This document shows, one piece after another, positions 5,893 through 6,836 of a DNA stretch of 64,000 nucleotides (positions within the stretch are counted from its first letter, which is position 1; the number at the start of each line of letters is the position of its first letter). The position numbers and the translations under genes are program-made. The stretch comes from Campylobacterales bacterium (GTDB lineage Bacteria > Campylobacterota > Campylobacteria > Campylobacterales > Hydrogenimonadaceae). The stretch spans positions 1-64,000 of the forward strand of contig JALWMA010000144.1 in the NCBI GenBank assembly GCA_027081015.1, given 5' to 3'. The notes beneath the pieces are model-generated. The model saw nothing but the letters and a program-made list of their open reading frames with translations. It did not search any database and was not told the DNA's origin.

Positions 5893-6195
5893 TCAGATCT
5901 GTGTACGGAGGAGCTCTTTGTACGCGTTGATCGCCTTGTTGCGGACTTCGAGCATCAGCTTCATGCTCGTTTCGGCTTTACCGATAGCGAGTGCGGCCTG
6001 ATGGAGATCTTTGACCTGTCCAGTCGCTATGTCGCTCATAGCCTCTTCGCCCTTTTTCTGCAGGTCGTTGACTTCGTCGAGTGACTCTTTGAGCACTTCC
6101 GCGAAACTGCCGTCCTCTTTTTTTTCGACCTCTTTGCCGTTTTTGAGAAGATCGTTCGAAGAGAGCCGGTTCACTCCCTGAATGTTTTTATCCAT
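5893..6195 (-). CDS. fliE: Flagellar hook-basal body protein FliE
   Basis: 100 aa; DLHQAALAIGKAETSMKLMLEVRNKAINAYKELLRTQI. Confidence 0.95.
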   Translation of the reverse strand: MDKNIQGVNRLSSNDLLKNGKEVEKKEDGSFAEVLKESLDEVNDLQKKGEEAMSDIATGQVKDLHQAALAIGKAETSMKLMLEVRNKAINAYKELLRTQI

Positions 6196-6224
6196 TCACC
6201 TTTTCCTGTAGTTGTGATCTGGTT

Positions 6225-6325
6225 TTACGCAAAAAGCGTAAAACTATCTCGAAATCTTGGATTTCGAAGCTTTATTGGGGCTGCAGGGCCTGCCAAATTG
6301 CGGGCTATGCCCGGAATTTGCGTAA
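6225..6325. repeat. Candidate palindromic (MITE/REP-like) intergenic element between flgC and fliE
   Basis: Perfect 9-bp terminal inverted repeats ttacgcaaa (6225-6233) / tttgcgtaa (6317-6325) enclosing several internal palindromes: 6222-6244, 6249-6267, 6283-6293, 6294-6320. Confidence 0.45.
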
Positions 6326-6341
6326 CATTACGGTTATTATA

Positions 6342-6836
6342 TTACGCTTTCATAAGCTCGATGGCACTGTTCGCCATCGCCTTCACGTTTTGGAAAGCGG
6401 CTACGTTGGCCTGGTATGCACGTGTCGCTTCTATAAGATCGGCCATCTCCACTACCGGGTTGATATTGGGGTATGCTACATACCCTTCGGCGTTGGCGTC
6501 GGGGTGGGTCGGATCGTACTTCATTTTAGGTTCGCTGTCGTCGCGAACGACCTTGTCTACGACCACACCCATCAGGGGCGGCATCGCCTTTTCGCCCTCC
6601 ATCCCCTCATCCAGCGGATCGGAGTATGGAAGGTAGTCGGTATCGTTCTCTATTTTACTGTTTAAAACTTTATCGAAATTGAAAGCTTTGAATACCACTT
6701 CACGTCTGCGGTATGGGCCGCCCTCATCGGTTCTGGTCGTGTTTGCGTTGGCGATATTGGAGCTTATGATGTTTACCCGAAACCGCTGTGCCGAAAGGCC
6801 GTAGCCGTTTATGTCGAAACTGTTCAAAAAATTCAT
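6342..6836 (-). CDS. flgC: Flagellar basal-body rod protein FlgC
   Basis: NISSNIANANTTRTDEGGPYRRREVVF; C-terminal EATRAYQANVAAFQNVKAMANSAIELMK. Confidence 0.95.
   Translation of the reverse strand: MNFLNSFDINGYGLSAQRFRVNIISSNIANANTTRTDEGGPYRRREVVFKAFNFDKVLNSKIENDTDYLPYSDPLDEGMEGEKAMPPLMGVVVDKVVRDDSEPKMKYDPTHPDANAEGYVAYPNINPVVEMADLIEATRAYQANVAAFQNVKAMANSAIELMKA

Follow-up and report, generated by a model that had tools for sequence, protein, structure and literature searches.

Palindromes in the flgC-fliE gap of a Campylobacterales genome: a probable decayed copy of a MITE-type transposon family with a conserved folded core

Introduction

Is the chain of palindromes that lies between two flagellar genes of a Campylobacterales bacterium a control element of that operon, a mobile element, or an accident of an AT-rich spacer? 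The locus lies in a 64,000-nucleotide stretch of contig JALWMA010000144.1, hereafter the window. On its minus strand the open reading frame list gives flgB, flgC, fliE and then a penicillin-binding-protein gene, in that order; the gene names come from the initial annotation and from sequence knowledge. The gap of 146 bp between flgC and fliE is almost wholly occupied by the palindromic element. We examined its structure, its relatives and the sites that it occupies.

Results

Layout of the window copy

The five palindromes, as well as the inverted pair ttacgcaaa/tttgcgtaa, were located exactly where the initial annotation had put them. Family alignment places the ends of the element at CTGG... 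(6219) and ...CCG(TA)ATG (6333), which makes it 115 bp long rather than the ~101 bp originally proposed (Table 1). The 9-mers taken for terminal repeats are real, but form only the inner part of 13-14 bp CTGATKTTACGCA-like repeats. The palindrome gcaggGcctgc (6283-6293) is present too; intact copies have a larger second hairpin here, of which it is the part that a deletion has left. Folding of the plus strand gave -46.9 kcal/mol, against -31.9 for shuffled sequences (z = -3.98), and folding of the minus strand -42.0 against -28.6 kcal/mol (z = -3.81); on either strand, none of 200 shuffles equalled the native value. A role as a terminator was considered and rejected: there were only weak consensus matches, and shuffled sequences had more of them than the region itself.

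Table 1. Coordinates of the element, its parts and the adjoining genes
Feature	Position	Strand	Basis or remark
flgC, gene upstream of element	6342..6836	-	ORF; ortholog alignments; element begins 8 bp past flgC stop
fliE, gene downstream of element	5893..6195	-	ORF; present in 17/21 genomes searched; fliE start 23 nt past element end
Probable MITE copy, decayed, 115 bp (intact copies 122 bp)	6219..6333	- (sense strand)	100% self match, ~60 genomic matches, family-alignment boundaries
Right terminal inverted repeat CTGGTTTTACGCAA; family form CTGATTTTACGCA	6219..6232		family alignment
Left terminal inverted repeat, decayed, CCGTAATGTTACGC on minus strand; family form CTGATGTTACGC; 2-bp insertion	6320..6333		
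Terminal hairpin H4 GTTTTACGC-TTTTT-GCGTAAAAC	6222..6244	-	stem covaries across family
Hairpin H3 TCGAAATC-nnn-GATTTCGA	6249..6267	-	near-invariant in Hydrogenimonas; other stems instead in other families
Hairpin H2 remnant; intact copies GGCAGGGCC..GGCCCT	6283..6293	-	11 bp deleted in window copy
Hairpin H1 CAAATTCCGGGC-ATA-GCCCGCAATTTG	6294..6320	-	strongest covariation of all stems
Presumed target duplication, flgC side, ATAATAA on minus strand	6334..6340		5/7 match
Presumed target duplication, fliE side, ATCACAA on minus strand	6212..6218		5/7 match

A dispersed family of gene-free units

Across the 147 contigs (2.14 Mb) of the window genome, the gap sequence has 61 matches. Most are ~120 bp long with an identity of 76-87%, and many follow one another head to tail in arrays, one unit every ~120 bp. 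Other Hydrogenimonas genomes contain at least 48 (G005), 50 (G001), 40 (G007), 17 (G012), 8 (G016) and 2 (G010) matches; G002 and G008 each gave a single weak match and nine further genomes of the genus none. All named matches of the core motif were Hydrogenimonas metagenome-assembled genomes, and on that basis we assign the window to Hydrogenimonas. Multiple copies with conserved ends, which the initial annotation had named as a sign of mobility, are thereby documented in quantity in the window genome and in sister species. Alignment of 56 copies yielded a 122-bp unit, CTGATGTTACGCAAATTCCGGGC...GCCCGCAATTTGGCAGGGCC...GGCCCTACAACCCCCTGAAGCTTCGAAATC...GATTTCGAGATGATTTTACGC...GCGTAAAATCAG, with terminal inverted repeats CTGATKTTACGCA / TGCGTAAMATCAG. 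Full units measure 122-123 bp, end in CTGATKTTACGC and are free of genes. They occur singly or in arrays of two or three, which are 242 and 362 bp long and into which a transposase gene would not fit.

All units of an array run head-to-tail in one orientation, without alternation. The array junctions are alike at unrelated loci, with a sequence of about GCGTAArCCATYCATGTTACGC, and the loop sequences are similar inside an array; together these likenesses suggest that the junction is inherited and that the units may be homogenised locally. Array length varies at orthologous sites, with two units in L030 and L016 vs one in their counterparts L079 and L072, respectively. Separately, we observed that H2 is often GGGGGTGAGC-like in the first unit of an array and GGGCCTG in the later ones (L008, L019, L007, L030, L035), so that the order of units is not random. 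Within the window genome, near-identical flanks on separate contigs enclose one vs three units (L018 vs L019) and two vs one (L002 vs L017); these are either duplicated loci or strain variants inside the assembly. Lone terminal hairpins such as CTGATTTTACGCAGAATGCGTAAAAC also occur without the remainder of the element (L197:4686-4697; L208:1796-1807).

Target duplications and empty sites

The 7-mers directly left and right of the element were compared at 112 copies with complete ends, drawn from several genomes. Their identity was 0.606, compared with 0.396 for shuffled pairings (z = 15), and 41 of these pairs differed at no more than one position where 2.2 were expected. Lengths of 2-6 and 9-12 bp gave no signal comparable to that at 7 bp in the same copies. 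The duplications are AT-rich and, as judged by eye, close to TTANTAA. Among the 26 copies scored in an order-wide set (see below), 15 had duplications matching at 6 or 7 of 7 positions.

In 11 further Hydrogenimonas genomes, flgC and fliE are separated by a short gap without the element. For 12 loci, the element and one copy of the duplication were removed in silico and the excised sequence was searched across the genus. The excised window site matched G017 as a single uninterrupted piece, and seven excised loci matched uninterrupted G005 DNA over the whole ~160 bp with 85-89% identity; several of the G005 sites are off by a few bases because the flanks have diverged. The cleanest case is a 242-bp two-unit array at C40 (L007), which has CTATTAT on either side; G005 has a single CTATTAT there and is otherwise near-identical. 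An empty site in a relative, the other sign of mobility that the initial annotation had proposed, was found in this way in sister species, and comparison at the level of sequence demonstrates the mobility of the family. Other sites (L034/L124) are occupied in both species, and some insertions are consequently older. Since a two-unit array can sit on a single duplication, arrays either move whole or grow in place. In the 65-bp flgC-fliE gap of G001 (L106), the sequence gtgttacac..gcgacatcag recalls the two ends of the element; it could be the relic of an internal deletion or a chance likeness.

Search for the mobilising enzyme

An autonomous partner was sought in about 1 Mb of sister DNA, mostly from G001 and G007, as pairs of ends 450-6000 bp apart with matching 7-mers; none was found. 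A relaxed search returned two weak pairs (5/7), one of which (L264) begins inside a separate short element. Another pair of ends, 1637 bp apart in G222, has fdhD-like and ModE/LysR-like genes between them; this pair was judged coincidental. The DDE_Tnp_1 domain (PF01609) is absent from G000, G001 and G007; an IS4/IS5-type (DDE_Tnp_1) parent was rejected, given this absence from three genomes and a single G005 match that lacks the ends of the family. The parent elements of other MITEs have often been lost (PMC4853749).

Two further kinds of non-autonomous element came to light. One, in G001 (L252-L271, e.g. L265:15600-15764), is 165-178 bp long and hairpin-dense, with ends CTGACCTTACGCAAA; several of its copies have 7-bp duplications, and its core was found also in G007 and G013. 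G001 holds ~40 copies, many of them >94% identical to the query, so an enzyme acting on CTGACCTTACGCAAA-type ends was probably active recently in that genome. The other consists of elements of 264 and 267 bp in G222 (L384:1501-1764 and L398:1501-1767), whose CTGACCTTACGCAC ends are perfect and whose interior has long palindromes. These are unlike the 116-bp family of the same genome and represent another non-autonomous type that shares its ends.

A folded core conserved across Campylobacterota

We then considered the stems in 77 Hydrogenimonas copies. Pairing was 0.885 vs 0.782 with shuffled partners for H1, 0.930 vs 0.831 for H2 (with its gap shifted by hand) and 0.920 vs 0.840 for H4, and changes on both sides were seen in 6 of 12, 2 of 6 and 6 of 11 pairs, respectively; counts of this kind are inflated by the relatedness of the copies. 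Long-range pairing between the two ends of the element did not rise clearly above shuffles in these copies.

A search of 399 genomes of the order, after which 20 loci were examined, showed that other families have elements that share the ends (CTGAYNTTACGCAC/GTGCGTAANRTCAG), most commonly ~115-117 bp in length, and with 7-bp duplications (e.g. TTATAAT/TTATAAT and TTATTGT/TTATTGT). Their linkers are those of Hydrogenimonas and their H1 and H3 stems differ; the core linkers GGCAGGGAC..GTCCCTACAACCCCCTAAAGC recur in several families of Campylobacterota. For the left part of the element, 30 sequences had 89.0% of cells paired vs 78.4% when shuffled, and a covariation score of 0.283 vs 0.112 (0 of 500 shuffles) that breaks down once the partner is moved over by a single column. 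Alignment A2, which includes two hand-trimmed sequences, was left out of the evidence. A covariance model of the core had matches in 85 of the 397 Campylobacterota genomes sampled and in 19 of 68 genera, those with E above about 1e-12 being less certain.

Among the Rfam 15 covariance models none matched the window copy, and relatives gave only chance-level scores far below the gathering score. The Hydrogenimonas consensus had no match in plasmid, phage and viral collections; for the order-wide element there was one partial match, on the Sulfuricurvum kujiense plasmid pSULKU01 between genes for an Rrf2-type regulator and TolC. In G299, from another family of the order, core units recur with a 92-bp period beside an assembly gap (L348:2028-2222), so arrays are not confined to Hydrogenimonas.

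Placement relative to gene starts

By simple ORF calling the copies are mostly intergenic. We counted a gene start where reading outward from an element end met a start codon that had a Shine-Dalgarno-like motif and opened a frame of no fewer than 80 codons. Using this definition, a start codon lay within 45 nt of the left end in 42 of 97 copies (range 11-41 nt); the right end had one in 12 of 97 copies, and random positions in 5.7% of cases. The bias between the ends (p = 2e-6 by a Fisher test that takes the copies to be independent) had the same direction in every genome, and the tendency was alike in other families, where starts adjoined 9 of 42 left ends and 2 of 26 right ends. The window copy has the minority orientation, with its right end 23 nt before fliE. 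Its position, which the initial annotation had called unusual, is ordinary for the family, whose copies usually lie in short gaps by gene ends or just 5' of gene starts.

Discussion

The dispersed copies, their ends, the 7-bp duplication, the gene-free units and the empty sites lead us to conclude that the palindromes in the flgC-fliE gap are best explained as a decayed copy of a MITE-type non-autonomous transposon, presumably mobilised in trans and making a 7-bp duplication (probability roughly 0.92). Several points weigh against this reading. No transposase-bearing element with these ends turned up in the ~1 Mb of sister DNA sampled, and PF01609 is absent from G000, G001 and G007; the duplication of the window copy matches at only 5 of 7 positions; several excised sites in G005 are a few bases out; and the internal core is strongly conserved across families, which is atypical for MITEs and would be compatible with a function in the host. 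In the mechanism that we propose, a transposase acting in trans, presumably with DDE-type chemistry, would recognise the CTGAYNTTACGCA ends and make staggered cuts 7 bp apart in AT-rich target DNA resembling TTANTAA, leaving the duplication. On this view the window copy inserted 8 bp past the flgC stop once its lineage had split from the relatives; since then, a deletion has removed 11 bp of it and its duplication has partly decayed.

Other origins for the cluster can be weighed against the same observations. Palindromes might gather by chance in an AT-rich spacer, and this one is short and in places of low complexity; z values below -3.8 on both strands and a genome-wide family refute that idea, which we give hardly any credit. 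Somewhat less far-fetched, yet still very improbable, is a control element, serving processing, attenuation or stability, that arose at this site and was inherited vertically with the flgC-fliE operon. The stable fold on both strands and the location within the operon would suit it, but the same gap is without the element in 11 relatives and dozens of copies lie by unrelated genes; an origin in place is refuted by this, and an effect of the element on fliE mRNA is possible. Comparably improbable is a REP/BIME-type element moved by a Y1 (RAYT) transposase, which acts on single-stranded hairpins and leaves no target duplication. REP/BIME sequences are palindromic, extragenic, multi-copy and clustered; REPs alternate in orientation within a BIME and have a link to tyrosine transposases (PMC2817692). 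The Hydrogenimonas family resembles them in being palindromic and hairpin-dense, intergenic, present in tens of copies and clustered in arrays of units; unlike them, it has clear 7-bp duplications, inverted ends and array units in one head-to-tail orientation. Thus, from the "MITE/REP" anatomy proposed at the outset, the MITE half is borne out by the copies and empty sites, and the REP half is unsupported because of the target duplications and terminal inverted repeats.

A MITE origin is compatible with an added function. The fold might act as a 5'-UTR RNA that is transcribed from the right to the left end, with the left end just before a Shine-Dalgarno motif, making the element a mobile structured-RNA cassette; we regard this as a tentative and rather unlikely proposal. 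The distance of left ends from gene starts, the repetition of this bias in other families and a core that is conserved and covaries across families speak for it. So does an excess of A.C over G.T oppositions (A.C being G.U on that RNA strand), an argument from sequence that is only suggestive, since the excess is significant overall, comes mostly from one position and falls to p = 0.14 when one column is dropped. Against the proposal, the window copy has the minority orientation and no Rfam family was matched. Moreover, the left-end bias could reflect an insertion preference, selection against a terminal hairpin directly before a ribosome-binding site, or an RNA function, and either of the first two accounts for it equally well. 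The broader view, in which a Campylobacterota-wide transposon superfamily carries a structured-RNA payload and puts this cis-acting 5'-UTR module a narrow distance 5' of ribosome-binding sites, seems to us similarly doubtful. In the flgC-fliE operon itself, the element presumably adds little beyond a longer spacer and a folded RNA segment.

As a rule, MITEs are young remnants of a single insertion sequence and have a narrow distribution. Those of bacteria are described as 50-500 bp long, gene-free and intergenic, with inverted ends, a target duplication and many copies (PMC10969869), all of which the Hydrogenimonas family has in common with them. It differs in its core of stems and linkers, conserved and covarying over several families of the order, in that no parental insertion sequence was found, and in a 7-bp duplication that was matched to no known family in this comparison. 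BOX elements of Streptococcus pneumoniae, with end modules boxA and boxC around repeated boxB (PMC3049150), are likewise MITE-like, folded and intergenic, with variable tandem modules and same-site length differences between strains. In Hydrogenimonas, by contrast, it is the entire ~120-bp unit that is repeated, across a conserved junction, and the boxA-(boxB)n-boxC order does not occur; we claim no sequence relation. ERIC elements, whose target is TA, belong to another host group. As far as descriptions can be compared, our element recalls the ERIC/IRU repeats of enterobacteria (127-bp RU-1; PMC2759123) in its size, intergenic position and largely palindromic sequence. The IS982 family makes direct repeats, of variable length, and has a member in a related host, ISSude1 from Sulfurimonas denitrificans; its ends start with AC (PMC7335449) vs CTGA in the Hydrogenimonas family.

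The family with its conserved core was not found in the open-licence literature searched, and the folded core appears to be undescribed. This fold has probably been kept either because the element requires it or because copies near genes are tolerated when they are folded and insulated. The family is a repeat worth annotating, and it raises the question of what enzyme, acting on CTGAYNTTACGCA ends, produces target duplications of 7 bp. The ends, the 7-bp duplication and the folded core all recur over several Campylobacterota families, indicating that the interior of the element has been kept as well as its ends.
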